A stretch of 53,669 nt of DNA from Bacteroidales bacterium (GTDB lineage Bacteria > Bacteroidota > Bacteroidia > Bacteroidales > ML635J-15), in NCBI GenBank assembly GCA_017994175.1, contig JAGOLH010000012.1, positions 1 through 53,669 on the forward strand. The letters run 5' to 3'. Shown here piece after piece: positions 35,736-53,669 of this stretch (its first letter is position 1; each line of letters begins with the position of its first letter). A program made the translations under genes and the position numbers. The notes beneath the pieces were generated by a model that was not told the origin of the DNA, made no database searches, and saw nothing but the letters and a program-made list of their open reading frames with translations.

Positions 35736-35743
35736 TATATTTG
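35736..35743 (+). promoter_or_regulatory. -7 box before the Fic gene
   Basis: TATATTTG, a perfect match. Its last base is the first base of the candidate GTG start, which makes the later ATG at 35794 the better start. Confidence 0.4.
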
Positions 35744-35793
35744 TGGATGATTATTTTGGTAACACTATTGGGAATGAGCAATTAGCCGATATT

Positions 35794-36672
35794 ATGAGCA
35801 GTAACCAAAAAATATCCATACGTTTTTTCGATGATCGGGAGGTTCGGGCATTGTGGGATGAACAAAACGCCAAGTGGTGGTTCTCGGTGCTGGACATTGT
35901 AGCTGTTCTTACCGACCAGAACGACTATACCAAAACTCGCAACTACTGGAAATATTTAAAAGCCAAATTAAAGAAAGAAAAGAACGAGTTGGTTAGTGGC
36001 ACTACCCAACTGAAACTGTTAGCAAGTGACGGCAAACGATATGTGACAGATATGCTCGATTACAACGGAATTATTGCATTGGGCAAACAATTTCCTGGTA
36101 AAAAAGCAAACCGATTCATTGAATGGTTTACATACAGTGATGAAAGTATTGACGGGAAAAGTAAAACAAAGGCGTATGCCCTGTTTGAGAGCTCTTTTAT
36201 CGACAGTATTGAAGTTGGAACAAGCAAGGGATTACAGCAGATACATGCCTATTTGTTTGGCGGTTTGTATGATTTTGCAGGACAAATCAGGCAAAAAAAC
36301 ATTTCAAAGGGTGGATTCCAATTCGCTGTATCGCACTTTCTTGGCGAAACATTACAGCAAATTGAACGAATGCCCGAAAATTCGTTTGACGAAATTGTCG
36401 AAAAATATGTAGAGATGAACATTGCCCATCCTTTTATGGAAGGCAATGGGCGGAGCACCCGAATATGGCTTGATATGATATTGAAAAAACGCCTGAAAAA
36501 ATGCGTGGACTGGAGTAAAATTGGTAAAACCGAATACATGAACGCAATGGTTCAGAGTTCTCAGGACGATAGCACCTTGAAGCAATTATTAATAAACGCC
36601 TTAACAAACCAAATCAATAGCCGCGAAATGTTCATGAAGGGAATTGACTACTCGTATTATTATGAAGAGTAA
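35794..36672 (+). CDS. Bro-N domain fused to a Fic adenylyltransferase
   Basis: The 292-residue protein starts at ATG 35794 (a GTG at 35743 would add 17 residues but lies in the promoter box). Residues 1-110 form a Bro-N-like DNA-binding domain of the kind found in phage antirepressors ([48 protein letters not shown]). A Fic domain follows with [14 protein letters not shown] at about 212, the full HPFxxGNGR catalytic motif, and a C-terminal [10 protein letters not shown]. Fic enzymes transfer AMP or related groups to target proteins. I see no clear antitoxin gene or inhibitory helix next to it. Confidence 0.88.
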
Positions 36673-38172: not shown

Positions 38173-39771
38173 CTAGTTGTTTTTGGTAAACTTTACGTAA
38201 GTCCATGGCTTACCAACAATATAATCTTCGATGTTGAGTAAATGTAATCGTTCCTTTTCGGCTTGAACTTCTTGTTTGCTATCGAAAAAATTAGAGCAAA
38301 TAAAGTAGAAATTACCCGTTTCTTCGCGAATCAGAGTGGTTTCTAAGTTGATTTCTCGTTGCAAAATCTTTTGACCTTGTTTGGCATAGTTTATATCGCG
38401 GTAAGCCCCGACTATCACACAATATTGTCCGGAAATATCCTCTGTAACTTCTTGCTTTGAATTGATGGCCGATATCTCATTATCGTTGCGATTGTTTCGG
38501 GAATCCTGTGAGTTGCTGTTATCTGTTTTATTGAAGTTGTTATTTAGTGTTGGGTTTTGATGGATAGAATCGGAATTATTATTTGCATCATTACTACGAT
38601 CCTGGCTGTTATAATCGGTGTCGACAAACTCATGGTTTTTCTTAATATCATTAAGCAACTTCATGTCTTCGTCACTTAGCTCTGCGCGTTTTTTTAGTTG
38701 TTCAATTTCTTCTTTTAGAATCGTTATTTGTTCTTTGTTATTATCAATTTCATCTTTCATAGATTTATTCTCGTATTCTAATTTATCTAACTGTTCAGAT
38801 TGTTCCTGCATATTTCTCTTCATCGATTTGTCGAATTTTCTGTTTTCGGCACTGTTTGATTCCTCGTTTTGGTTTCTAATGATTTTATATCCTATAATTA
38901 GTTCGTAGGTAGAACCCGAAAAATCAGCAATTGCTCCTACGCTATAATCGTAAGCACAGCCAATGCTTAGATTGTCGTATATATCGAAAGCAAGAGCGAG
39001 ATATACCGAGCTATTGTGCCTGTATGCCAAACGAGCTTGTGCCACACTAAGAACTTCGAAGTTGAGGCCTGCATCAAGTTGTAAGGGCAATCCGATAGTT
39101 GTTCTGGCTTGAATTTCAGGACTTATTGATAATTTGTTGTTCAATAGGTGAAATTCATAATTAATGACTCCCCAGAAATGCTGAACCAATTGATAGCTTA
39201 CTTGTCGAACATTTCCATTCGACTGAAACAACATTCGTGTTCCGGGAAGTTGATATCCGGCCAAACCAATATGCAAATTGTTGAAGCGATAGTTGAGACC
39301 TGCGTCACCTGAAATGTTGCTAACACTTTTGCTTGACGCAAATAAAAGAGGGTCGCTCCAGTCGGCAGATTCAATTTGGTCGTAAGCCACTCTGGTATTT
39401 ATCACGTTAAGACTAAGCCCCATCGACAAATAATGTTTTTCGCCAAAACTTATCGAATAGGAATAACTGGCTCCAAGCATCGTTTTTCTATACACGTTGT
39501 CGGCATCAATCGAAAGATTCACACCCACACCTACGTTGCGCCCGTTAATCTTAGTGTCGAATGTCAGTGCCGTTGTTTCGGGTGCACCTGGAATATCTTT
39601 CCATTGTTGCCGGTTCTGCAAAAATAGGTTTGTGCCTTTTTCCCCTGCTGCTGCAGGGTTTAAATTGTATGCATTCACAAAATAGAAATCGGTAAGAGAC
39701 AATTGTTGCGCCGAAGCAGACGAAATAATCAACAAACCAATGATATATAATAGAGCTTTATTCATAAACAA
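38173..39771 (-). CDS. PorP/SprF barrel with coiled coil and SPOR-like domain
   Basis: The 532-residue protein starts with a signal peptide (SASAQ at about 18-22), then a PorP/SprF outer-membrane barrel at about 25-298 (FYFVNAYNLNPAAAGEKGTNLFL, RQQWKDIPGAPETTALTFD, GVGVNLSIDADN). Unusually, the barrel is followed by a coiled coil (about 315-370), a linker very rich in Asn, Asp and Ser (about 380-435), and a SPOR-like domain at about 447-530 (QYCVIVGAYRDINYAKQGQ). PorP/SprF proteins assist T9SS export of type B substrates; SPOR domains bind denuded peptidoglycan. The gene follows the type B cargo gene directly, with no gap. Confidence 0.87.
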   Translation of the reverse strand: MFMNKALLYIIGLLIISSASAQQLSLTDFYFVNAYNLNPAAAGEKGTNLFLQNRQQWKDIPGAPETTALTFDTKINGRNVGVGVNLSIDADNVYRKTMLGASYSYSISFGEKHYLSMGLSLNVINTRVAYDQIESADWSDPLLFASSKSVSNISGDAGLNYRFNNLHIGLAGYQLPGTRMLFQSNGNVRQVSYQLVQHFWGVINYEFHLLNNKLSISPEIQARTTIGLPLQLDAGLNFEVLSVAQARLAYRHNSSVYLALAFDIYDNLSIGCAYDYSVGAIADFSGSTYELIIGYKIIRNQNEESNSAENRKFDKSMKRNMQEQSEQLDKLEYENKSMKDEIDNNKEQITILKEEIEQLKKRAELSDEDMKLLNDIKKNHEFVDTDYNSQDRSNDANNNSDSIHQNPTLNNNFNKTDNSNSQDSRNNRNDNEISAINSKQEVTEDISGQYCVIVGAYRDINYAKQGQKILQREINLETTLIREETGNFYFICSNFFDSKQEVQAEKERLHLLNIEDYIVGKPWTYVKFTKNN

Positions 39772-42700
39772 TTATTTATTTCTTAGAATTGAAACACTGC
39801 CTTTGTAAACCACATCGGAATTTGCGAAAACAATAGCATAGTAATAGGTGCCATCGGGCAGAATATCACCATTCAAATTTTCCCCTTTCCAGTTGTTAGC
39901 GTAAGCTTTCGTTTGAAATACCATATTTCCTATCCTGTCGAAAATAAAGACCTCACATGAGCCATAACTTTCAATATTTTCGATATACCAGGTGTCGTTA
40001 ATCCCATTACCATCGGGTGTAATAATATTGTTTGGCTTTATTTTAAAGTCTTCGAGCACCTCAATCATAACCGTATCATAGTTTACACACCCGCGAGTGT
40101 CTTCTACCTGTAAAATGTATTCAATGGTTTCTAAGGGTTTGGCCAGAGGGTTGGCAATAGTAGCATTCGATAAAAATGATGATGGAAACCATGTAAATAG
40201 GGCACCACCGCTTCCACTCAGGCGTATTTCGTCACCTTTACTGATAACAACATCTTGTCCGGCATCTGCATTGGGTAAAGCAAACACTTGGACATATCGT
40301 GCCAGCGAGTCGGTACAACCATTTTCCGATTGTACTTGCAATACCAAACGGTATATACCGTGTGTGTTATATATGTGATTGGGATTTGGAACGATGGATA
40401 TTTCCATGTCGCCAAAACTCCATTGATAAAACATATTACCAGCTTGGATTATACTTTGATTTTGTGGATTTATAGGAATTCCATCGCAGACATCACTAAC
40501 CGAAAAGTTTGCCAATGGCATATAATCGACAGTAACAAACGAAGAGTAAGTGTGTTGGCAAGAGAAGTTAGATGTAACACTTAGCACCACCTGATAAGTT
40601 CCCGGATTCAGATATTGTTTAACGGGGTTTTGTTGCACCGAGTTGGTGCCATCTCCAAAATCCCACGAGTAGTTGGCAATGCTTCCGCTTTCGATGTGCG
40701 ATTCATCGAAAAAGTATGACATTTCTCCATCGCATACATTTTCGGCACTGAACATGGGTTCGGGTATTGGATACACAACTACTTGTTTGCTTACCGAATC
40801 GGCGCACATGTTGTTAACCGTTGCAATTAATTTTACCACATAAGTGCCGGCACTATTGTACAAATGCAGAGGCTCAACATCATCAGAATTATTTCCGTCT
40901 CCAAAATCCCATACATATTCTAAACTCCCTTGCTGAATAACCGACAGATTTTCAAAATTCACTTCGTTATATAAGCATTCGTTGTTTGCAACAAAGTTTA
41001 CATTGGGTAAGGCATACACGTTGACTAATTTAGAGATACTGCTTTGGCAGGCACTGTCGGTATTTACGCTAAGTGTTACCGAATAGGTTCCAGGAGCTTG
41101 ATAATAGTAGGTGGGTGAAACTTCGTTTGAGTTGTCGCTATTGCCAAAATTCCAGTGATAATATAAATCTCCTTGCGGTAAAATCGAATTATCAACAAAA
41201 TACATCGAATCGGTAAAACAGACATCGTCGAAACTAAAGTTGGCTATAGGTTGCGGATGCACATAAATTATTTTCGAAACAGTATCAACACAGCCTTGAT
41301 TGGTGGTTGCTGTCAATGTAACAACATATTCTCCAAAGCTGTTGTATAAATGTTCAGGATTAATTTCGTTCGAAAAATCACCATCGCCAAAAGCCCAAAA
41401 CGAAATGGAACTACCGTATTCTATATATGTGGTGTTATTGAAGCTGAGTGGTGTTCCGTCGCATTGATTTTGTGTGATAAAATTGGGAATGGCCCGCGGA
41501 AAAATTTCGATGTTATGTTTTACCGAATCGCTACAACCCGATTCAACTTGTGTAACAATTAGGTTTACTGCATAGTTGCCGGCAGCAGGAAATACATGAT
41601 GCGGATTTTCGAATTCCGACATGCTTCCGTCTCCAAAATTCCATTCATATGCCAGTGCACCTCCGTTGGGCGCAAACGAATTGTTTACACAAAACACGGT
41701 GTCGCTATTGCATTTATTGGCAGCATAAAAACTAACCACCGGCGAGGGATAAACAGGAACAACAGCGCTTATTGAATCGATGCACGAATGATTTGATACC
41801 GCAACCAATTTCACGGTAAACATGCCGTGCGAAGGATATATATATACAGGATTAGTTGAGCTGTTTCCGTCGCCATTGCCAAAATCCCAGCTGTAACTTA
41901 CAATGGAGCCTGCCGAAATGCTGCTATTGTTAACAAAGCTTGTAGGATGCGAAAAACAAACAGTATCATAAGTAAACTCGACTTCGGGTGTTGGATGCAC
42001 TACAATGGTACAGATTTCGGAATAGGCTGTGACACATGTTCCCGATTGTATCACAGTTCGATACGTGGTGGTATGGTTTAAGTTGCTGAAATTTAAAGTG
42101 TGATTGGCATTGGCTGTATCGTTCCATGTAGTACCGTAATCGAATGAATACTGCCATTTTGTAATGGTACCCGTATAATCGGAAAGCACGAGAGTGCCAC
42201 TGTTGTTGCCTGCACACACTTCTTGATGACCCGACACAATTCCGCCATGCGATACCGGCGATACGTGTACCTCAACTGTATTGGTATATATCGACTGGCA
42301 AACGCCACTTTTCACCAAGGCTCTGTAATGGTGTGTCTGCAATAAATTGGTATACTCAAGCGTATCGTTTTGATAATCGATGCTTGACCAAGGGGAAAAT
42401 CCTGTTTGAGACGATTCCCATCTGAAAATTTCTCCAGTGTAATCTGATACAATGAGTTGTCCGTTGTTACTCAGAGCACAAACATCGTTACTACCACTGA
42501 GTGTTCCTGCTTGGGTGGGAGGAAACACGGTAACAACAACCGTGTTCGAAACAGCCTCGCTGCATGCGCCGCTTTGCACAACCGCCCGGTACCAATTGGT
42601 GCTAGATAGGTTATTGAACGAATAGCTGGGGTTGGTGTTCGCGATTGTATTCCACGTAATTCCTTGGTTGTTGGAGTATTCCCAATGTGTAATATTGCCG

Positions 42701-43125
42701 TTGTAGTTGCTTAAGTTGAGTGAGCCGGAGTTGCCGCTACCACACAATTCCATGTTGCCAACCAAGTTTCCTGCTTGTGTGAAACTGCTAACTTGAACTA
42801 CTGCTATCGTGCTTGTGTCTTGATCGGTCGCTCCAAATTTAACAATAGCCCTGAAATAGGTAGTTTGTTGCAAGTTGTTGAAGGGTAAGGGTTTGCTTTG
42901 ATACGATATAGTAATCCATGGGTCGCTGCCTGATATTGAGTATTCCCAGTATAACACGTCGCCTACCGACGACATTAGTGCGATGGTGCCGGTGTTGACA
43001 TCGGCACACACTGTGCCAGGTGATGCTACCGCAGTACCACCATCAGACACTTGTGAATATGTGGCCGTTGACCACAGCAGAAAACTCAACATCACGATTA
43101 CTGACTTAAATGAAAAATCATTCAT
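39772..43125 (-). CDS. Large Ig/PKD surface protein with type B T9SS domain (CHU_C)
   Basis: The 1117-residue protein has a signal peptide ending TYSQ. Residues about 26-378 hold four related Ig-like repeats of about 90 residues (QAGxLxG, VC, W-YS, YRAxVxSGxC). Residues about 380-960 hold seven PKD domains, each with a WDFGDG-type core. The C-terminal 90 residues (NIITPDGNGINDTWYI, FIFDRIGNMVFQT, LPDGTYYYAIVF) are the CHU_C/gliding-motility type B T9SS sorting domain. Such proteins depend on a cognate PorP/SprF protein, here encoded next. It is probably a long surface adhesin. Confidence 0.92.
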   Translation of the reverse strand: MNDFSFKSVIVMLSFLLWSTATYSQVSDGGTAVASPGTVCADVNTGTIALMSSVGDVLYWEYSISGSDPWITISYQSKPLPFNNLQQTTYFRAIVKFGATDQDTSTIAVVQVSSFTQAGNLVGNMELCGSGNSGSLNLSNYNGNITHWEYSNNQGITWNTIANTNPSYSFNNLSSTNWYRAVVQSGACSEAVSNTVVVTVFPPTQAGTLSGSNDVCALSNNGQLIVSDYTGEIFRWESSQTGFSPWSSIDYQNDTLEYTNLLQTHHYRALVKSGVCQSIYTNTVEVHVSPVSHGGIVSGHQEVCAGNNSGTLVLSDYTGTITKWQYSFDYGTTWNDTANANHTLNFSNLNHTTTYRTVIQSGTCVTAYSEICTIVVHPTPEVEFTYDTVCFSHPTSFVNNSSISAGSIVSYSWDFGNGDGNSSTNPVYIYPSHGMFTVKLVAVSNHSCIDSISAVVPVYPSPVVSFYAANKCNSDTVFCVNNSFAPNGGALAYEWNFGDGSMSEFENPHHVFPAAGNYAVNLIVTQVESGCSDSVKHNIEIFPRAIPNFITQNQCDGTPLSFNNTTYIEYGSSISFWAFGDGDFSNEINPEHLYNSFGEYVVTLTATTNQGCVDTVSKIIYVHPQPIANFSFDDVCFTDSMYFVDNSILPQGDLYYHWNFGNSDNSNEVSPTYYYQAPGTYSVTLSVNTDSACQSSISKLVNVYALPNVNFVANNECLYNEVNFENLSVIQQGSLEYVWDFGDGNNSDDVEPLHLYNSAGTYVVKLIATVNNMCADSVSKQVVVYPIPEPMFSAENVCDGEMSYFFDESHIESGSIANYSWDFGDGTNSVQQNPVKQYLNPGTYQVVLSVTSNFSCQHTYSSFVTVDYMPLANFSVSDVCDGIPINPQNQSIIQAGNMFYQWSFGDMEISIVPNPNHIYNTHGIYRLVLQVQSENGCTDSLARYVQVFALPNADAGQDVVISKGDEIRLSGSGGALFTWFPSSFLSNATIANPLAKPLETIEYILQVEDTRGCVNYDTVMIEVLEDFKIKPNNIITPDGNGINDTWYIENIESYGSCEVFIFDRIGNMVFQTKAYANNWKGENLNGDILPDGTYYYAIVFANSDVVYKGSVSILRNK

Positions 43126-43128
43126 AAG

Positions 43129-46100
43129 CTACATTATTACAATTTTATAGGTTTTCATTTTGTTGAGTACATTCATTCGTAGAATATAGATTCCCGGATC
43201 CAAATGATTAAAGTTAAACGACTTATTTACATACGATGCATGGTCAATCTGCTCTTGATAAATCATTTTTCCATGTAAATCGAATAAGGACAGCGAAATT
43301 ACTGAGTGTTGATTGAGCTGTAACTCGTAAGTAAAACTACCATCATTGGGGTTGGGATAGAGTTTTTCGGAAAGAATTTCGAAAAAGTGTTCGGTGTTAT
43401 CGTTTTCAACTTCTTTGGGAATATAAATTTTGCTTGTACCGCTTATTTGTATTGGCTTTGAAATGGTATCGGAACAAATATTGTTGCTTACCATCAGTGT
43501 AACCAGATAGTTGCCTTCTACATAGAATACATGCTGAGGAATTGCTTCGGTGCTTGTAACGCCGTCTTTAAAATCCCATAAATAATGGGTTGGTTCAGGA
43601 TATGAAACATCAACAAAACGTATTGTGTCGCCCCGCATGGCCTCCGATGCTGCCAGAAAATATGCGGTAAGCGAAAGCTCGCTGAATTGAACTATCACTG
43701 TATCGGAAGCAGTGCAACCAAATTCGTTGGTAACATCAACCCAATATTTACCTGAATCGGCCACGATTACTGCATTCTCAAAAGAGCTAAAACCGAAATC
43801 AGAACCCCAAGCATAGTATTGTCCGGCATCACCGGCACTTAACAAAGCCATTTGATTGGCACAGAGATACAAATCAGCACCTAAATGTACTATTGGGTTG
43901 GGATGAAAAACTACTGCAACAGAATCTTCGGAGCTACAACCAAATTCGTTGGTAACTTGCACAGTATAATTCCCTGTTTCTACAACCTGTATCGTGGCGC
44001 TTGTTTGAAGTGTGTTCCAGAGAAAGCTGCAATTGGGATTTCCTGCACTCAAAACAAGAATTTCTTCGTTACATAGAGCGGTATCGTTGCCAATATCAAC
44101 CAAAGGTCGGGGATATGCAGTTACACTTACCGTATCGATTAAGCTGCAACTATTGCCACCGGTAATTGTTACCCAGTAATTGCCCGATTGGCTTATTTCG
44201 ATAGCTTGGGCAGTGCTACCGGTATTCCATACAAATGCTGCACCCTGATTGTGTGCGTTTAAAAAACCTGTTCCGCATATAATGGTGTCGGCGGGGAAAG
44301 GGTCAATAGGAAGACTATTAAACACTACCTGAACGCTGTCGCTAACCGTACACGAATTAATGTCGGTAACCGTAACAGAATATGTGCCAGCCTGATTCAC
44401 TTCAATTTGCTGCAGCGTTTGGTTGGTTGACCACAGATAATTTGATCCCTCATTTTCGGCATCAAGCACTACTGCCAAACCTTCACATTCGGTAACAACG
44501 TCGCCCAGGTTTAGTTGTGGCGATTGGTGTACCACTATTTCTACACTTCCAACACCGGTACATCCCTGATTGGTAATAGTTACAGCATATATTCCCGATT
44601 CTAATACTGTTATGCTTTGCGTGCTAGCACCGGTTGACCAAATAAAATCAGCTCCCGGGTAACCTGCATTCAAAGTCGTTGAGTCACATACCTCCCAATA
44701 CTGTCCGTCGAAACTTACAACTATTGGAGCGTTTAATGTTACGTGGACTTGGTCGCTGGCCGAGCAGCCATAGTTATTGGTTACGGTTACCGAATAATCT
44801 CCATTTTGATTTACAGTAATCGTCTGACTTGCAGCATTGTTCGACCAAATATAGTTTGCCCCACTGTTCTGGGCATCGAGAACATAAGAGTTGAAACAAT
44901 GAAATATATTATCGCCCAAATCGACAACAGGAGTGGGATAAACACGCACTATTTTATCAATGGTGTCGGAGCAACCTACTCCCGATTCAGCAATTAAACT
45001 CACCAAATATTCTCCTTCGGCATTATAATAATGTTGCGGGTTTGAGGCATCCGATTGCGAGCCATCGCCAAATTCCCAATAGAATGTAAGACTGCTGTTG
45101 TTGGGGAGCGACATATTTTGAAACATACTGGTATTGCCAAAACACACCGGTTGGCACAAAAAGTTGGCATTCGGGTTGGCATAAACCTGAACGGTTTTTT
45201 GAATACTCTCGCTGCAGCCCTGCTCCGAGGTTACTTCTAGGTTCACAGTGTAGGAACCGGGGTTGCTGTATAATTTTTTAGGGTTTGCAATGTTTGAACT
45301 GCTACCGTCTCCAAATGTCCAGTGATAGGTAAGTATTTCGCTTGGGTCGATGCTGCTTTCGTTGGTAAAAAACACGGTGTCGCCCTCGCACACATTGCTA
45401 AAACTAAATTCCGCATTGGGAATGGGGCGAATAATTACATTATTGTAAGCCGTGTCGCTACAGCCATAAGAGCTGGTTGCAATAAGCTGAACGGTATAGT
45501 TACCATGTGTGTCGTATACAATTATTGGATTTGGAGTGGTATTTGCAAATCCGTTTCCAAATTGCCATTGATAACTTAAATTACCGTATGGAATGCTTGA
45601 GGAGTTGTGAAAGACCGACGAGTTTTGCAAACAAACATCGGCGTCGTCGGTTGTGAAACCGGCTATGGGTAATGGATAAACTTCTATATTTTGTGTGATT
45701 GTGTCGGTGCAACCGTGATTATCGGTTGCTATTAATTGCACTGCATAAGTCCCGTGATTGGTATAGAAATAGGCAGTATCTTCTGCAAAAAACTGGTCTC
45801 CATTGCCCAAATTCCAATGTGTTAGACCGGGGAATGCATTTGGGGTTGTATTGGTCAGAATTACCGGCTTGTTCTTGCAAGCATTATTAAACGTAAAACT
45901 CATTTCGGGTAAATCGAAAACGTGCACTGTGGCTGTATGGCTGATGGCACACGAATTGGCTGCAATGGCCGTAAGAGTAATGGTATAGGTGCCGCCGGCT
46001 ACATATGCGTGTTGCGGAAATTCTTCGGTAGCAGTATTCCCATCGCCAAATTGCCACAGATAACTTAATGGCTCTGCTTCAGGAGCCACTGTAGTGGTGT

Positions 46101-47316
46101 TGTTGAAACTTATAAGAGTTCCCGGGCAAGGACCCACCGGCGAGTTAAACGAGAAGTTTGTGTGAGGAACCGAGTCGAGAACCACCAATACCGAGTCGAT
46201 ATTGAAACAGCCTCTTGGGTCGGTAACGGTAACATAGTACATTCCAGCAGTGTTTACACTGATAATTTGAGAGGTTTCGCCAGTACTCCATACAAAAAAA
46301 GAACCGTTGTTGTATGCATTAATGCTTCCGGTACTTCCGTTACAAATATGTAGTGTGTCGCCTATGTTAACCACAGGAATAACATCACAAATATGGTCGG
46401 CTACGGTAATGCGGGTTGGATTTTGTATGTAAATCACTTCTCCGTTTGTTTCGGCAACGTTTCCGGTAGTATCGACCCCACCATATTTTTTTTCGTAGTA
46501 ATACCCATTGGTGTACGATGACCAGAGTTTAAAGTCACTTTCGTTGCAGTTCACATCCCACAAATCGGTGGTGTCGAGATAGTGAACAATAACATCGTGA
46601 TTTCCGGCTTGACCGGGCATCAGATTAAAGTACTTTTTTACACTACCGTCGGTTACTGTAGTTTCTGAAGTGTGCCCTCGTTGAATGGTTATATTGCCTG
46701 CGGTAGAGCCGTTTTGAAATTTTATTCCCATACCGTATCCATCGAAACTGCTCATGTTGGCTTGTGTGTAAACATATCCCGTTAGTCCCATTATGTGTGA
46801 CGAGTCGGATTCTTGCCCCAAACGGCCTTTATGATGTAAGTCGTAGTCGCTCAAAAACAAATCGTTGCCATTCAAATCGATAATACCACCTTGAAAATGC
46901 AAACTATCGTTTTGAATAATCTCAGTGTCGAGATATAGCGTATCTCCCGATTTTTTGATATATACAATATTGAATTGCACGTTGTTACCCATAATCCGCT
47001 GCAGGCTATCGCCCACAAAATGAACCTGCCCTTGTTCTTCCATCGAAAAAACCAAACTGATGCCAGAATTATTTACAATATCGCCGGTAATCGACACATA
47101 TCCTGAATTGAAAATGCTACCTTGGTAAGGGTACGAATAGTTTGTTTTATCGAACACACAACCCTTTATAAAAACACTATCGTTCAATATGGTAATTTCG
47201 CTATTCGAAATTATTGTAATAGTGTCTTGGGTGTTTTGAGCGTAAGCAATAAGTTTGCACGAAAGCAATATGGTAATGCTCAAAATTAGTTTGATGTTTT
47301 GGTTCAGGGTATGCAT
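43129..47316 (-). CDS. Large PKD/Ig surface protein with type A T9SS domain
   Basis: The 1395-residue protein has a signal peptide ending AYAQ. About 270 residues at the N terminus are non-repetitive and beta-helix-like. Then come an Ig-like repeat, five PKD domains (cores WQFGDG, WNLGNG, WQFGNG, WTFGDG, WEFGDG), six further repeats of the form LDAxNxGxxYxWS, GxYxVTVTNxxGC, a last PKD domain (YLWDFKDG), and a type A T9SS sorting domain over the last 75 residues (LYPNPNDGSFTYELQL). It is predicted to be exported and cell-surface attached. It lies 3 bases from the next gene of the same operon. Confidence 0.9.
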   Translation of the reverse strand: MHTLNQNIKLILSITILLSCKLIAYAQNTQDTITIISNSEITILNDSVFIKGCVFDKTNYSYPYQGSIFNSGYVSITGDIVNNSGISLVFSMEEQGQVHFVGDSLQRIMGNNVQFNIVYIKKSGDTLYLDTEIIQNDSLHFQGGIIDLNGNDLFLSDYDLHHKGRLGQESDSSHIMGLTGYVYTQANMSSFDGYGMGIKFQNGSTAGNITIQRGHTSETTVTDGSVKKYFNLMPGQAGNHDVIVHYLDTTDLWDVNCNESDFKLWSSYTNGYYYEKKYGGVDTTGNVAETNGEVIYIQNPTRITVADHICDVIPVVNIGDTLHICNGSTGSINAYNNGSFFVWSTGETSQIISVNTAGMYYVTVTDPRGCFNIDSVLVVLDSVPHTNFSFNSPVGPCPGTLISFNNTTTVAPEAEPLSYLWQFGDGNTATEEFPQHAYVAGGTYTITLTAIAANSCAISHTATVHVFDLPEMSFTFNNACKNKPVILTNTTPNAFPGLTHWNLGNGDQFFAEDTAYFYTNHGTYAVQLIATDNHGCTDTITQNIEVYPLPIAGFTTDDADVCLQNSSVFHNSSSIPYGNLSYQWQFGNGFANTTPNPIIVYDTHGNYTVQLIATSSYGCSDTAYNNVIIRPIPNAEFSFSNVCEGDTVFFTNESSIDPSEILTYHWTFGDGSSSNIANPKKLYSNPGSYTVNLEVTSEQGCSESIQKTVQVYANPNANFLCQPVCFGNTSMFQNMSLPNNSSLTFYWEFGDGSQSDASNPQHYYNAEGEYLVSLIAESGVGCSDTIDKIVRVYPTPVVDLGDNIFHCFNSYVLDAQNSGANYIWSNNAASQTITVNQNGDYSVTVTNNYGCSASDQVHVTLNAPIVVSFDGQYWEVCDSTTLNAGYPGADFIWSTGASTQSITVLESGIYAVTITNQGCTGVGSVEIVVHQSPQLNLGDVVTECEGLAVVLDAENEGSNYLWSTNQTLQQIEVNQAGTYSVTVTDINSCTVSDSVQVVFNSLPIDPFPADTIICGTGFLNAHNQGAAFVWNTGSTAQAIEISQSGNYWVTITGGNSCSLIDTVSVTAYPRPLVDIGNDTALCNEEILVLSAGNPNCSFLWNTLQTSATIQVVETGNYTVQVTNEFGCSSEDSVAVVFHPNPIVHLGADLYLCANQMALLSAGDAGQYYAWGSDFGFSSFENAVIVADSGKYWVDVTNEFGCTASDTVIVQFSELSLTAYFLAASEAMRGDTIRFVDVSYPEPTHYLWDFKDGVTSTEAIPQHVFYVEGNYLVTLMVSNNICSDTISKPIQISGTSKIYIPKEVENDNTEHFFEILSEKLYPNPNDGSFTYELQLNQHSVISLSLFDLHGKMIYQEQIDHASYVNKSFNFNHLDPGIYILRMNVLNKMKTYKIVIM

Positions 47317-47328
47317 AAATTTCTGTTT

Positions 47329-48339
47329 TTATTCTTTCATTATAAAAGCCAGCACATAAAAGGGTGGGCGGTTTTCGTGAGCGACATTTCCACCGTTATT
47401 GCCAGTTGTTACATTAAAGATTCTGTCAAGCCAAACAGTGAAAGTTCTATTATCTCCGTTTTCATGTGTTCCATCGTTTCTAAGTCCGCTTTCTTCCAAA
47501 TTTGTATAGCGATCGGTAAAAGTTATATATACACTATGACCATGAGATGGCATTTGACTTTCACTTATTGCAACCTTGTCGTAGCCACCTTTAGGTCCTA
47601 TACTAGGATTTACTGGTGTAAGAGTTGAATCTCCATCATATTTAAGAGTTTTTTCGTTATGCGCACCATACCCCATAATAAACCTACCTCTTAAGTCGGG
47701 AGTGCCGTTGGTGCCATCACACAATTTCCATCCGGCAGGTGGGGTAGAACCGCTCCACATGATTATAGAACCGGCGGGCAGTAAATCGTTTCCGCCTTCT
47801 TGTATTTTGCCACCGGTGTTAATGTGGTTTGTAGAATGTATTTCGCCATCCACTTCTAATTTCTTAAAACCCACATTTGAGCCGATACGCACTTGCCCTG
47901 CAATAAAGGCACCGTTAGCCGGGGCTTCTTCGTTGGCACCAATGCTCATGTTTCCGTTAACCGAAATCTTGCTGTTGGCACCGGAATAGCCTATGCCCAT
48001 ATTTTTGCCATCGTAGATATCGGCATCCATATCCTGCGGTGGTTCCAAATCGCCCCAATTGAGTATTTGCCTGAATGTTCGCAATGAATACCAATTGCTT
48101 CCATCGTAATAGCAGAACAAACTCCAATCGGTGTTGTATGCCAGTAAACCGGTTGCCGGATTAGATATGGCTGCTATCTGCGCCGAACTAAGTCGTGGTA
48201 CCAGCAATCCCTGATTGTTGGAATTCGACTTTAAATCGAGTACTGCCGATGAATCGGGGCTGCTGTTGTTGATTCCCACTTGCGAAAAAGCAAGATTGAC
48301 TGCTAACAAAAGACTTGCAATTAATAGTAGTGTTTTCAT
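47329..48339 (-). CDS. Secreted protein with phage-tail-collar-like domain
   Basis: The 336-residue protein has a signal peptide ending AFSQ, then a Bacteroidota-type head (VGINNSSPDSSAVLDLKS, LLVPRLSSAQIAAI, YDGSNWYSLR). Residues about 190-240 are a tail-collar domain (GSIIMWSGSTPPAGWKLCDG, PDLRGRFIMGYG), and the C terminus HENRPPFYVLAFIMKE is also collar-like. Collar domains of phage fibres trimerise and bind receptors. No other phage gene is present and no T9SS sorting domain is visible, so it is probably a fibre-like surface protein within this operon. It follows the FN3 gene by 4 bases. Confidence 0.85.
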   Translation of the reverse strand: MKTLLLIASLLLAVNLAFSQVGINNSSPDSSAVLDLKSNSNNQGLLVPRLSSAQIAAISNPATGLLAYNTDWSLFCYYDGSNWYSLRTFRQILNWGDLEPPQDMDADIYDGKNMGIGYSGANSKISVNGNMSIGANEEAPANGAFIAGQVRIGSNVGFKKLEVDGEIHSTNHINTGGKIQEGGNDLLPAGSIIMWSGSTPPAGWKLCDGTNGTPDLRGRFIMGYGAHNEKTLKYDGDSTLTPVNPSIGPKGGYDKVAISESQMPSHGHSVYITFTDRYTNLEESGLRNDGTHENGDNRTFTVWLDRIFNVTTGNNGGNVAHENRPPFYVLAFIMKE

Positions 48340-48343
48340 GATG

Positions 48344-50323
48344 TTATTTCTTTAAAATAATAATTTCCTGATGTTCTGAATAATACATTTTATCGTCTTT
48401 TCCCAATGCTCCTACACGATATTGATAGGTTCCGTTTTCGTTTTTTATCATATCCTGATAACTTGATTCTGTAAGCATTCCGCTAAGGGGGGTAAAATGT
48501 TTTTGGCTTTCTGATTTACGATAAACCACATACGCTTTTGTTTCCTCTGGCTTGTTTATTTTCCATTCGATGATCACCTGTTTTTTGTTGTTTTTATGGA
48601 TAAGCCTGAATTTGTCGAAACTGAGGTTTGCATCAGGATAAGCTAATCGTGGGGCAGTATATGCCTCCGAAGGAGCAGAGAAATTTCCTTGCTTATCGAC
48701 TGCAATCACCAAATAGCGATAGCTGGTATCGAAATCGGCAAATCTATCGGTAAAAATAGTAATACCTGTAACTATATCGATGTTGATTTTTTCAGCTTGG
48801 TCGGGACTTTGATTTTCGGTAAAACGGAAAATGTTATATCCCAACAAATCGTTGTCGTAAACCGGATACCATTCAATAATCAAAGTATTATTATTTTTTG
48901 TTATGGTTTTAATGACCGGTTTTTCGGGTGCTGTAACATCAGGCAACTTTGTAAATGCAGTATTCGAAAATTCACTTTTGTTGTAACTGGAATCAACTGC
49001 TACTACTTTATACGAAAAATTACTGGATATTTGTTTTGGCAACTTATCTGAGAAATTGTTTTGCGTATAATGGTCGGCATTGAGCAGCATGTAGGTTTGA
49101 GGATTGCCATTCATACTGCGATAAATATAATAGCCCATCAGATCGGGTTCAGGACAAATATCCCAACTTAAATGAATAATTCCGGTGTCGGAACTGGCTT
49201 TAAGGTTTTGTGGTGCTGCTGGCGGAAAAACATCTTTTATGTCGGCCAAATATGCAATCGAAAGTGCTTCGTTTCCGGCTGTATCAACCGTTGCAACTTT
49301 ATAGTTGTATAATCCTATTGTAGAAACAGTATCGTAATAGGTTTGAATTTCTTTGGGAATCAGACTTGAGTTGACTGCAATATAATCAGTGTTGCCTTCA
49401 AGTGCTCGATAAATGCGATATCCTGCTAAATCGCTGATGTTTTCGTTTTCCCAATACACTTGCACCTGTTTGCCAATTACGCTTACACCCAGTCGGTGGG
49501 GAGGTAAAGGGGGTGTTACATCACCTATTTTTACAATAATTTCGGAGCTCGGTTTGCTTTCTCTGCCAAAGTAGTCGATGCTTTTAACAATATAGCGGTA
49601 TTCTTTTCCCAGAACCAAACTATCGTCGGTAAACAATGCTTCCTGATAATTTCCATTTTCGTCGAGGTTGTGAATTATGGGCACAGGGGTTATCAGTTCC
49701 ATGTCTTCGTTATCGCTTGCACGATACATTTTCACTCCCATAAATGCATCGGGATTGGGCCTCCACGAAAACTTCGCACTATAATTGTCTTGCCATGCTT
49801 TGATATCAGCCGGGGGGTCGACTTTCTCGTATTTTGTTGAAGTAATGTAATCTGATATTGCAAGGGAATTCGCTTCGGGGCTGTTGCCTTTACAAATTTT
49901 ATATCGGTATTGCTTACCTGCAGTTACAGTTTTATCAATATGTTGAATTCCTAAAAACTGACACAGCTCGGGGTGTTCTACCGATTTAATCATAAGAATT
50001 AGTAAGGTCATTCCATCCAAATCGCCTGCTCTGCTTCCCATTACCGAGTTTTGTAAAACCTCCAGAATTTTGTCTTCTTGTAGTATTTCTCGCGACATTC
50101 CATTGCCACGACTAAATTCTCCAATAAATTCCCATGTACTTCTTCCATTTTCTTGACGATACAAAAACACAGGGGAATCGAAATAAATGAATTCGCTGTA
50201 CCATTTCACCCAAATTTCAGAGTTGTCGGTATTGCTAACTATTACTTTGGCGTTTTCTTGTGCCAGCAATTGATGGCTAAAGATGAGCAAAAATATTAAT
50301 ACTATGGCTGTTTTGTTTTTCAT
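48344..50323 (-). CDS. Secreted fibronectin type III repeat protein
   Basis: The 659-residue product has a signal peptide ending LLAQ. After a unique N-terminal part of about 170 residues, four or five fibronectin type III domains follow from residue about 175: recurring LxGYxIYR and YxYxVxAVDxxGN segments, with the linkers TPPLPPHRLGV, FPPAAPQNLKAS and TAPEKPVIKT. The last domain ends IIILKK. I see no catalytic site and no standard T9SS sorting domain. It is an extended modular protein, likely extracellular or periplasmic, and the second readable gene of the surface operon. Confidence 0.87.
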   Translation of the reverse strand: MKNKTAIVLIFLLIFSHQLLAQENAKVIVSNTDNSEIWVKWYSEFIYFDSPVFLYRQENGRSTWEFIGEFSRGNGMSREILQEDKILEVLQNSVMGSRAGDLDGMTLLILMIKSVEHPELCQFLGIQHIDKTVTAGKQYRYKICKGNSPEANSLAISDYITSTKYEKVDPPADIKAWQDNYSAKFSWRPNPDAFMGVKMYRASDNEDMELITPVPIIHNLDENGNYQEALFTDDSLVLGKEYRYIVKSIDYFGRESKPSSEIIVKIGDVTPPLPPHRLGVSVIGKQVQVYWENENISDLAGYRIYRALEGNTDYIAVNSSLIPKEIQTYYDTVSTIGLYNYKVATVDTAGNEALSIAYLADIKDVFPPAAPQNLKASSDTGIIHLSWDICPEPDLMGYYIYRSMNGNPQTYMLLNADHYTQNNFSDKLPKQISSNFSYKVVAVDSSYNKSEFSNTAFTKLPDVTAPEKPVIKTITKNNNTLIIEWYPVYDNDLLGYNIFRFTENQSPDQAEKINIDIVTGITIFTDRFADFDTSYRYLVIAVDKQGNFSAPSEAYTAPRLAYPDANLSFDKFRLIHKNNKKQVIIEWKINKPEETKAYVVYRKSESQKHFTPLSGMLTESSYQDMIKNENGTYQYRVGALGKDDKMYYSEHQEIIILKK

Positions 50324-50328
50324 ACGTG

Positions 50329-53300
50329 TTACAAGTTAATTCCGGTGCTTAGGTCAAAATCACAGGTAACGATGCTCAGAAATGTTGCATGCCCAGAGAC
50401 TTTACCCGAAAGATATCTTTCATAATATTCGAGTTGACCTTTTAAACCTATACTGGCCAATTCAAAATTGCCAAAATCACATAAGGTTCCACTGGTGGTT
50501 ACATATAAACCGGCATGGAAATCAACCCCAAAATATGCTTTATTGATTTTTATGTTTGGCTTATACTGAATACTTGCCAAGATATCGGCTTTTAACGATA
50601 TTTCCGCTTTTATGCCAAGAGAACACACCTCGGTACTAATCGAACCGCCAAATTTTGCACTCATTGAGGTTCCCAGTCCTATTTCAAACCTAGTCTGATT
50701 GAGTAAGAAATATCCGGTAAAACGCACAGGTCCGTTTGAACATAAAGGCTGTACGATAACTGGTTTTTCGCGGGAAGCCAGATTTATTTCCCAAAAATCA
50801 GGATTAATATCAATATGCAAGTGTCCGTGACCACAAACTGCCGGATTTCGTGCCTGCCCAAAAAAGTCGCCTACAAATCGGTTGGCATTTCGGCTGTATT
50901 GCATACATCCCAAGCCTTCGATTACAGGAGGAGCTCCAGCATAATTGCCCCAGTTGCTGGTTACTTCGAAGCCAATATCTTCTAACCCGCCATCTTCGGT
51001 AAACTTTACTTCCATGGTACCGGTACCTTCAACCACTTCGCCTTTTGTAGTAAAATCGACATAATTCACCAATACATACACTCCATACGAAACCGAAGGA
51101 TCTACTTTATAATCAACTTCTATCTCTCCCGGCTCGAATGAGATAGAGGGTATTTCGATGTTCAGTTCTGGCAGAACAACTTCTAAATCGGGTAATCCCG
51201 GAAAATAATATTCCCAATCGGGCCATTCGAGTTTGGGTAATTCGGGAATATTCAAATAGATATTTCCCCAATTGATACCGGGCCAAATCATGATAAATTT
51301 GCAAAGGTTTTTTTCGGGAAACATTTCGTGAATATCTGGCCATGTTATATTTGGATAATCTACTTGAATCATATCCCAATTTTCGTCGTACATAATTGCG
51401 TTTAAATCATCGTATGAAGGAGGTGGAAGTTCTTCGAGTACTCTATTGAAGAAATACTCTGATAGTTCACAAACATCGGGGAATCGCGGCCATTGTATGT
51501 TGGGCATTTGGCATAGTAAGTTACCCCATTGCATGCCTTCATCGTTGTCGTCAATCACTTTTTGGCACCAGTCGTAACCCGGAAAAACTTTGGCAAGTCT
51601 GTCATATGTAAACTTGTGATATTGATCTTGTATGCCCCCGTTTTCATAAGCATCTTGCATTCTGCCCCGTGCTTCGGCGGCAATCATTTGGTTCAAAAAT
51701 TCCGAATCAGAGGACCCATGCGATTCTATATACGACTGAATGTCGTCGAAATTGGGCTCCGGAAATTTTTCTAATACGGCATTAAAAGCTGATGAATGTA
51801 AACTACATAGCAATGATTTCATTTGTGCTGCGTTCAAATGATTAAGAATTTCACACACATCGGCATCGGGTAAATCGGGTAATCCCAGATGATAGTTCGA
51901 TAGACCCGGTTCGGCAATTTCATCGAATTTCATATTGCAGTCAACTCCTACGGCTGTTTCGGGTCGCATGTGGTAATAAACCCTGCCTGTAATCCCATTG
52001 ATTTCGAGGGGTCCGATTTTTATTCCAGACTTCGACATTTGAACTTTTTTTAGCTTTTTCTTTTTCCCTTCAGGCACCTGAGCCTGATCGTGTTCATGAC
52101 CGCTAGTTGACAAGCCCAATTCGGCAAACCAATACGGCTCTCCATCAAGTTTTCCGATTAAAAACTGCACTTTAGCATGATATTCCTGAGGTTGTTTGAT
52201 GGTTCCGTCTAATAAAGCGTAGAATGCAGTTCCCCATTCGGGGTCTTCGTTTGTGGCAACAAGTCCTCCTTCAAATTCAATTACAGGTGTGTTTACTCGT
52301 ATATAAGGCAAATTCGCAAAGATATTTTCGGGGGTTGACAGAAATTCCGCCTTGTTAATAAAGCTCTGCACCCAAGTTTCTACCGACAAATCGTAAGTAG
52401 AGCTGGCTCCTTCTTTTAGCTCGTACGAAGCCATGGTAACACGTGGAGGTTTGTTGTTGGCTCCTGCAATATTATCAGCCAACACAATTTCCCCGTTCAC
52501 ACCCATCATGTAATTTTGCCCATGCCGCCCCGACACAATCGAATCGACTATTAAATCGTAAGTATTGTAATATTTAGCCGACACAGGATTGCTCAAAATG
52601 CATGCGCCATTCGGCTCATTGAATCCAAAATCGTCATTTCCCCAAACACATAAGCCGCTTAAATTCGGAATATAGGTTTGCATATAAGGCCAATCCATAT
52701 TGACCGTGAACTCGAGCTTTTCATTGTCTTTAAAAACAGCCTGTTTAATAGTTAGAATGAGTTTCAGTTTTTCTTTATCAGCGTTTAAAACAATTTGCTT
52801 GTTTAGCAGTTGGGTATTTAAATCCATAATCTGAAATCCATTGGCATCAATAATTATGTTTGCAGCCATTTCGTCGTTTCCTAAAAGTGGGATTTTTGTA
52901 GCGACAGATAGTTCCGAGTTGGTATGTTCGTTTCCGCTGATAAGAAGCTTAAGTTTGGTGATATTTATAGCAAACCCACAATAGTTCCCCGCGTTGTATA
53001 AACTGAAGTTTGTTTCTAAACTTGCAGTCATACCGCCGTTGTCGATATAGGCAAATTGATTAGGTGTGCCTGCAATATCGAATACATATTGCATCGGATA
53101 TTCCGGATTTATGCGTTGTTGCATATCGACGTTCACGGGAATTTCAATTTTTGCTTTTTCGAAACCAACACCTTTCCACATTGCATCTTTGCCTATTTGA
53201 TCAATAGCATCGACATTGCTAAAATCGACTGTGTATGCCAAAGGTATAAATGCCAGATTTGTATTTTCGGCAATTTGAATTTTATGCTGTGTCTGAACGT

Positions 53301-53669
53301 TTTCCTGGCTAAAAAAGAACAGGTTGTTTACATTTTTAAAAGGTAAAACCATTCTTTCGTTATTGGTGTTTTTTATGTTGATGGGAAGGATTAACTTGCC
53401 ATAAAAGCGGGGAGTAAACCTGTTTTCCGAAATTAAAAAACTTGCCGTGCTGTCGAATGAAATCTCATACCCAATAGGATCGATTAACGTAAAACTGTTG
53501 TTATTGCCAAGTGAAATGCTTCCAAGCAATTTATATACATCGTAATTTACCCATGCACTACTTGATACAATATTCGCCAAATCAGGGGCATCGGTAACTA
53601 AAACAAAGGGCCACACAAAATGTCCTTTAATGGCTAGTTCTTCTTTGTTTAGCTTGATAGAGTCAGCAT
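50329..53669 (-). CDS. Very large secreted-type protein, 5' part outside the window
   Basis: The frame stays open to the right edge: 17 codons beyond the GTG at 53616 contain no stop, so the true start and any signal peptide lie outside the window. At least 1112 residues are visible. The N-terminal part is beta-rich. At about residues 640-850 counted from the GTG there is an unusual run of Trp/Pro-rich segments (MPNIQWPRFPD, YPNITWPDIHEMFPE, WPGINWGNIYLNIPELPKLE, GLPDLEVVLPELNIEIPS). The C-terminal part is again beta-rich with glycine and cysteine (CGHGHLHIDINPDFWEIN) and lacks a recognised sorting domain. I do not recognise the family. Confidence 0.8.
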   Translation of the reverse strand, partial: ADSIKLNKEELAIKGHFVWPFVLVTDAPDLANIVSSSAWVNYDVYKLLGSISLGNNNSFTLIDPIGYEISFDSTASFLISENRFTPRFYGKLILPINIKNTNNERMVLPFKNVNNLFFFSQENVQTQHKIQIAENTNLAFIPLAYTVDFSNVDAIDQIGKDAMWKGVGFEKAKIEIPVNVDMQQRINPEYPMQYVFDIAGTPNQFAYIDNGGMTASLETNFSLYNAGNYCGFAINITKLKLLISGNEHTNSELSVATKIPLLGNDEMAANIIIDANGFQIMDLNTQLLNKQIVLNADKEKLKLILTIKQAVFKDNEKLEFTVNMDWPYMQTYIPNLSGLCVWGNDDFGFNEPNGACILSNPVSAKYYNTYDLIVDSIVSGRHGQNYMMGVNGEIVLADNIAGANNKPPRVTMASYELKEGASSTYDLSVETWVQSFINKAEFLSTPENIFANLPYIRVNTPVIEFEGGLVATNEDPEWGTAFYALLDGTIKQPQEYHAKVQFLIGKLDGEPYWFAELGLSTSGHEHDQAQVPEGKKKKLKKVQMSKSGIKIGPLEINGITGRVYYHMRPETAVGVDCNMKFDEIAEPGLSNYHLGLPDLPDADVCEILNHLNAAQMKSLLCSLHSSAFNAVLEKFPEPNFDDIQSYIESHGSSDSEFLNQMIAAEARGRMQDAYENGGIQDQYHKFTYDRLAKVFPGYDWCQKVIDDNDEGMQWGNLLCQMPNIQWPRFPDVCELSEYFFNRVLEELPPPSYDDLNAIMYDENWDMIQVDYPNITWPDIHEMFPEKNLCKFIMIWPGINWGNIYLNIPELPKLEWPDWEYYFPGLPDLEVVLPELNIEIPSISFEPGEIEVDYKVDPSVSYGVYVLVNYVDFTTKGEVVEGTGTMEVKFTEDGGLEDIGFEVTSNWGNYAGAPPVIEGLGCMQYSRNANRFVGDFFGQARNPAVCGHGHLHIDINPDFWEINLASREKPVIVQPLCSNGPVRFTGYFLLNQTRFEIGLGTSMSAKFGGSISTEVCSLGIKAEISLKADILASIQYKPNIKINKAYFGVDFHAGLYVTTSGTLCDFGNFELASIGLKGQLEYYERYLSGKVSGHATFLSIVTCDFDLSTGINL

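Follow-up and report, generated by a model that had tools for sequence, protein, structure and literature searches.

The stretch of DNA analysed here, called the window, is one entire contig of 53,669 bases (JAGOLH010000012.1) from a Bacteroidales bacterium. We found that six adjoining genes at one end of it belong to a seven-gene order that is conserved in six other Bacteroidota genomes, where it is led by a gene for a predicted outer-membrane barrel, followed by a gene for a giant protein that appears to be related, at superfamily level, to the TANFOR proteins (TIGR02542). We see an even chance that this is a conserved TANFOR-class surface operon that builds a fixed contact or adhesion apparatus, made partly via the type IX secretion system (T9SS) and anchored by a PorP protein. 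In the window, the six genes follow one another on the minus strand, spanning 53667 to 38173:

50329..53667, minus strand: giant protein, C-terminal 1112 amino acids of an estimated ~1610, reading frame open to the contig end
48344..50323, minus strand: FN3-type exported protein, 659 amino acids, Sec signal (PF00041 in orthologues; orthologue 3' of the giant gene in relatives)
47329..48339, minus strand: collar (phage short-tail-fibre-like) protein, 336 amino acids, Sec signal (PF07484, PHROG and profile matches)
43129..47316, minus strand: PKD-repeat protein, 1395 amino acids, C-terminal type A T9SS domain (PKD_4, E 2e-77; TIGR04183)
39772..43125, minus strand: PKD-repeat protein, 1117 amino acids, C-terminal type B T9SS domain (PKD_4, E 5e-88; CHU_C; TIGR04131)
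38173..39771, minus strand: PorP/SprF barrel with coiled linker and SPOR-like tail, 532 amino acids (PF11751, E 8e-46; TIGR03519)

The intergenic gaps are 5, 4, 12, 3 and 0 bases. An earlier reading of the same letters made without database searches (the sequence-only reading) had described six same-strand genes with these gaps, and its coordinates, strand and gaps were all exact. Pfam and NCBIfam also agree with the type A and type B T9SS domains and the PorP/SprF barrel that it had named. Because the window is an entire contig, the giant gene is truncated.

Conservation of the gene order

Loci were sought with a profile of the N-termini of the giants (alignment A1), which returned 17 loci in named genomes, and with a PorP search and the flanking regions. 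Six other Bacteroidota genomes were found to have genes for the barrel, the giant, FN3, one to three collar proteins, PKD/type A, PKD/type B and PorP with a SPOR-like tail in this order. G297, G301 (identical to G176) and G302 show it, and so do G299, with broken giant and FN3 frames, and G019/G305, in which a contig break divides it between two contigs. G300 (Cytophagaceae) carries a circular permutation, namely collar, PKD/type A, PKD/type B, PorP, barrel, giant and FN3. In each of G297, G301, G302, G299, G019 and G300, the best PorP match of the genome sits in the operon. Partial versions were seen at L033, where the operon can be read as far as the PKD gene at which the sequence stretch ends, and at L111, where barrel, giant, FN3 and collar are followed by a SprB-repeat type A protein. 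No flanking gene was visibly common to the operons of different genomes.

Over seven genomes, the seven proteins have correlated matrices of pairwise identity (r 0.79–0.96, Mantel p ≤0.005). As any vertically inherited genes are expected to correlate, these distances are a mark of co-inheritance and not of joint function. The conserved order in divergent genomes, taken together with co-inheritance, is more than chance. The sequence-only reading had staked its operon on such conservation, which the six further genomes and the correlated divergence of the proteins now supply; its count of six genes holds for the window, but the relatives have a seventh, leading gene for a large outer-membrane barrel.

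The part of the operon that is missing from the window was estimated from relatives. The complete giant of G297 (L031) is 57% identical to the window giant and matches it from L031 residue 496 onward, and the G019 giant is 61% identical. By this estimate, ~495 N-terminal residues, comprising the TANFOR-like region, are cut off by the contig end. In both G297 and G019, the giant gene is preceded by a gene for a protein of ~565 amino acids, the barrel. A profile of these barrel proteins gave exactly one match in the window's genome (model positions 17–358), right where the 3447-base contig C1 ends, and this fragment is 72% identical to the G019 barrel protein. With the barrel present in the relatives and a fragment of it at the end of C1, the full operon in the window's genome therefore most likely consists of seven genes too. 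We infer that contigs C1 and C23 adjoin, with an estimated ~2.1 kb unassembled between them. The absent N-terminus of the giant was searched for elsewhere in the same genome and was not found. Divergently upstream of the barrel fragment are DUF3987 and HTH_17 genes, which are frequent in mobile elements (G000:C1:1-1531, L080). The G019 giant contains a single in-frame TGA between two long open parts (L012:4474-4500 / L030:11972-11998), which may reflect a pseudogene, recoding or an assembly error.

The giant protein and its barrel partner

The window part of the giant matched no Pfam or NCBIfam family. Among complete relatives, two giants matched TIGR02542 weakly (~18 bits against a curated cut-off of 67), and there was no TIGR02542 match on the giant of the nearest relative. 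A profile of the giant N-terminus (~470 residues) matched TANFOR proteins in 16 TIGR02542 loci with E-values of 1e-33 to 1e-61, a homology that was read on relatives 57–61% identical to the window giant and not on the window copy. As the TIGR02542 scores fall short of the cut-off and it takes a profile of relatives to make the homology clear, we would place the giant among the TANFOR proteins at superfamily level only. The TANFOR study (Jana, Salomon and Bosis 2020; PMC7073777) describes these proteins as polymorphic toxins with variable C-terminal toxins in many Bacteroidota, in neighbourhoods enriched in FN3, PKD, SprB and T9SS-domain genes, and supposes that their export goes via the T9SS; the barrel, the collar protein and PorP are not mentioned in the sections of it used here.

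The barrel gene lies directly upstream of the TANFOR giant in 16/16 TIGR02542 loci. In 13/16, a gene from the same FN3 family comes no more than two genes downstream of the giant. Thus, barrel, TANFOR giant and FN3 protein form a general three-gene core, to which the window type adds four genes. When 20 barrel loci were mapped, the next gene encoded a giant with the conserved N-terminus in 14 or 15 of them; L120 and L124 have a barrel with no such giant adjoining it, and a few other loci are ambiguous. A second core that is not accompanied by the four downstream genes is present in G176/G301 (L041:8287-16766). In G111 (L019:322-16747), a barrel, a giant that lacks the TANFOR-like N-terminus, an FN3 protein and a SprB-repeat type A protein make up a further branch of the core.

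An AlphaFold2 model of the barrel, built from 15 sequences, has a predicted local distance difference test score (pLDDT) of 78 and ~26 long strands. The best match among solved structures is MtrB (26 strands; Z 18.9 over 450 residues, 13% identity), and AlgE, CymA and FimD also match, with ushers at Z 14.5–16. With 10–13% identity to MtrB and the ushers, this is a likeness of fold, and the model suggests that the leading gene encodes a wide outer-membrane pore of roughly 26 strands. The barrel is present in 84/395 sampled genomes of the phylum (about a fifth). SprA, the T9SS translocon, was found in 84/84 of these compared with 303/395 overall (hypergeometric 9e-12, a statistic that ignores phylogeny). 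In some genomes, the barrel open reading frame is ~820 codons long (L113:13185-15644, L114:13608-16067 and L115:13547-15994) and encodes a C-terminal extension of ~250 amino acids, for which there was no Pfam match in L113.

Two regions of the window giant could be delimited:

50332..51087, minus strand: conserved, strongly amphipathic beta domain at the C-terminus, ~residues 861–1112 (amphipathic-strand windows)
51322..51858, minus strand: predicted, mostly helical insert, ~residues 604–782, low confidence (AlphaFold2, pLDDT <55)

In the last ~250 residues, amphipathic-strand windows are at 5.8 times the shuffled level (3.4–6.5 times in relatives), and the alternating hydrophobicity exceeds that of the barrels themselves. 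Many TANFOR giants share this C-terminal amphipathicity, at 2.5–4.5 times the shuffled level. In a VIA search, residues 775–1112 aligned loosely to outer-membrane barrels, with MtrB the best (Z 13.2; pLDDT ~50–75). The amphipathic C-terminus could equally place the giant in or at the outer membrane.

Sorting domains, PorP and the collar protein

Four shorter features fall within the downstream genes:

43135..43362, minus strand: type A T9SS sorting domain (TIGR04183/PF18962), residues 1319–1394 of the 1395-amino-acid PKD protein (TIGR04183, 44 bits against a cut-off of 23)
39781..40032, minus strand: type B T9SS sorting domain (TIGR04131/PF13585) of the 1117-amino-acid PKD protein (TIGR04131, 56 bits against a cut-off of 35; CHU_C, E 1e-21)
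38215..38433, minus strand: SPOR-like domain of PorP, residues 447–519, sub-threshold (PF05036, hhalign)
47536..47544, minus strand: HxH motif, collar residues 266–268, invariant in 14 collar proteins (alignment A5, motif count)

T9SS sorting domains are confined to the two PKD proteins in the operon; neither a type A nor a type B domain was found in the giant, the FN3 protein or the collar protein. SprA is encoded in the window's genome by two adjacent open reading frames scoring ~1300 bits each. These are 1154 and 1433 amino acids long and ~100 bases apart (G000:C8:3091-10229; L078, L079), and the split is possibly an assembly frameshift.

PorP scores above the cut-offs (PF11751, 157 bits; TIGR03519, 174 bits), and its gene is directly downstream of the type B gene, with a gap of 0. 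The sequence-only reading had paired type B cargo with a matching SprF-like protein, and this arrangement matches published pairs of a type B protein and the cognate PorP/SprF protein that retains it (PMC9143113, PMC12618676). The SPOR anchor that it also proposed is sub-threshold in Pfam (PF05036, 16 bits against a gathering score of 21; E 0.013 in the window and 0.0036 in the best relative), but the tail does align to a SPOR domain of the same genome (hhalign probability 65%, E 6e-5). The fused form, with PorP, coil and SPOR-like tail, is kept in six relatives, and all linked copies have the SPOR-like end. When 395 genomes were searched with a PorP profile, the full fused form was found only in the window's genome at E ≤1e-50, a threshold at which divergent copies may be missed. 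A search of PDB sequences with the PorP alignment returned coiled-coil noise and was discarded, and one with the SPOR-like tail gave nothing useful.

Pfam calls no FN3 domain in the window's own copy of the second gene, but PF00041 was found in 4/8 orthologues (best E 2e-17), and the FN3 profile matches the FN3 chains of titin and fibronectin. The collar protein matches PF07484 (29.2 bits against a gathering score of 24), its second half (residues 157–335) matches the PHROG tail collar fiber protein (E 6e-22), and its profile matches T4 gp12 (1pdi, E 1e-12) and the tail fibre 9qgo (E 2e-23). The earlier suggestion that this protein is a possible tip gains support from the homology to phage tail-collar fibres and gp12. 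The HxH motif of gp12-type fibres binds metal, and by analogy the collar HxH is a putative metal-binding site and the collar protein a putative trimer. An extracellular contractile injection system, which the collar match had suggested, was dropped as a reading: genes for a sheath, a tube or a baseplate did not turn up, although they were not sought systematically.

Scans for terminators and promoters inside the operon gave no excess, both being at chance level, and the Bacteroidota-type TTTG/TANNTTTG motif was not found inside the operon and was found upstream of the barrel in few relatives. These scans speak neither for nor against one transcript. PADLOC gave no match. Just past the downstream neighbour of the operon, positions 35743-36672 encode a Fic-domain protein with a BRO-N match. 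A 792-codon open reading frame at 26990-29368 begins with a protein kinase domain, and the N-lobe part of the profile is absent from it.

The proposed apparatus, its rivals and known systems

In a fixed contact or adhesion apparatus, all operon products would reach the periplasm by Sec, and the two PKD proteins would cross the outer membrane through the T9SS. The cognate PorP would then retain the type B protein and, through its coil and SPOR-like tail, may link it to peptidoglycan, as a fixed rather than a gliding anchor that ties a type B stalk to the cell wall. The wide barrel would serve the TANFOR giant as a dedicated partner in the outer membrane, either exporting or anchoring it, and the FN3 protein and a trimeric, gp12-like collar protein would form the distal part, with the collar binding a target surface. 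A single extracellular structure with the giant as scaffold, as put forward by the sequence-only reading, stays an inference, as do the function and the export route of the giant.

Several points weigh against such an apparatus. It is pieced together from sequence and models, and co-transcription of the six window genes is presumed from their layout. The N-terminus of this genome's own giant is unseen, its N-terminal homology being taken from relatives, and the model of the giant is poor (mean pLDDT 57) and leaves undecided whether it lies outside, in or under the membrane. The SPOR-like tail is below the Pfam cut-off and its link to peptidoglycan is weakly supported, adhesion is deduced from the homology of the collar alone, and the co-occurrence of SprA and the barrel is confounded by phylogeny. 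Sister TANFOR loci also carry toxins, so that contact killing with an unrecognised toxin remains a rival.

A more tentative reading is that the barrel and the TANFOR giant are a dedicated unit for outer-membrane export and assembly, either separate from the T9SS or coupled to it, which would serve a surface spike bearing a phage-type tip in this operon type and the display of toxins in sister loci. It seems unlikely that the window holds a polymorphic-toxin locus in which a toxin that went unrecognised, on the giant or on a downstream protein, is delivered by contact and the collar chooses the target. Toxins are carried by TANFOR proteins in many Bacteroidota, near FN3, PKD and T9SS-domain genes (PMC7073777), and toxin-like variants share the same barrel, for example L115 with a weak TNT match; the C-termini of the toxin-like giants L113–L115 are not amphipathic. 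However, the window giant ends in a domain that is conserved in relatives and not in a variable tip, no product of the window operon matched a toxin or immunity family in Pfam or NCBIfam, libraries that cover known toxins, and no small immunity-like gene is present inside the operon.

We consider it improbable that the barrel and giant are a transport route for lipid or another macromolecule, TamA/TamB-like or MtrB-like, with a periplasmic giant and the downstream genes as a separate adhesin set. The MtrB-like barrel and the strong alternating hydrophobicity of the giant would suit such a route, as would the weak structural matches of the giant to lipid-groove and outer-membrane transport proteins (ApoB, MTP and LptD). 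These matches are, however, of low quality (template modelling score ~0.1), and no fold is claimed from them; TANFOR relatives with C-terminal toxins need export from the cell, and the downstream genes co-inherit with the core. A mere cluster of unrelated surface genes with no joint action is more improbable still: the four downstream genes are absent from most barrel-giant-FN3 loci, but the order is the same across divergent genomes, with short gaps and correlated distances, and all seven parts are retained in the permuted locus. Least probable is a unit like SprB/SprF, in which a gliding adhesin is carried over the cell on GldK tracks. The type B domain and adjoining PorP/SprF-like gene do recall sprB/sprF (PMC12618676), but the Cys-X-Cys that ties SprF to GldK (PMC12635249) is absent from the periplasmic C-tail of all eight PorP sequences checked and the tail is replaced by a coil and SPOR-like domain.

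On the question of how TANFOR proteins, Bacteroidota toxins with no T9SS signal, cross the outer membrane, the barrel found directly upstream of every TANFOR gene examined is a concrete, testable candidate partner. In the seven-gene version, a phage-type receptor-binding tip shares an operon with T9SS proteins of types A and B and with a PorP; as this PorP may have a cell-wall tie of its own, surface anchoring that does without PorE becomes testable.

The nearest known systems are the TANFOR toxin loci of Bacteroidota, which share the N-terminal region of the giant, the adjoining FN3 protein and an enrichment of PKD and T9SS type A proteins nearby (PMC7073777), and, as found here, the same upstream barrel. 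Unlike them, the operon has no detected toxin or immunity gene, its giant ends in the conserved amphipathic beta domain, and it adds the collar, the type B protein and PorP with a SPOR-like tail in fixed order. The sprC-sprD-sprB-sprF operon of Flavobacterium johnsoniae also encodes very large surface proteins and, like other type B/PorP pairs, has a type B gene followed directly by a PorP/SprF gene; by the published descriptions used, it has no TANFOR giant, large barrel, FN3 or collar gene, and SprF differs from the PorP of the operon, which has a coil and SPOR-like tail and lacks the GldK-bonding cysteines. In the PorP-PorE-PG1035 complex of Porphyromonas gingivalis (PMC9143113), a PorP-like barrel likewise retains a type B protein and has a tie to peptidoglycan, but there the tie is the separate OmpA-like lipoprotein PorE, whose place in the operon would be taken by the SPOR-like domain that is fused to PorP.

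Phage short tail fibres and tail collars such as T4 gp12 have the same C-terminal receptor-binding module with HxH, to which the collar protein is homologous in sequence; unlike them, it is a bacterial protein exported by Sec, and genes for a sheath, a tube or a baseplate were not seen around it. MtrB of the Mtr complex and the chaperone-usher pores share the predicted fold of a very wide outer-membrane barrel, a match of fold only, with no cytochrome, chaperone or pilin genes seen adjoining the barrel. Literature searches, which left out most subscription journals, found neither the seven-gene combination nor the constant barrel partner, and returned no relevant paper on PorP with SPOR or on a collar with T9SS or PKD. 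The components of the operon are members of known families, and what appears to be new is their seven-gene combination and the constant barrel partner.
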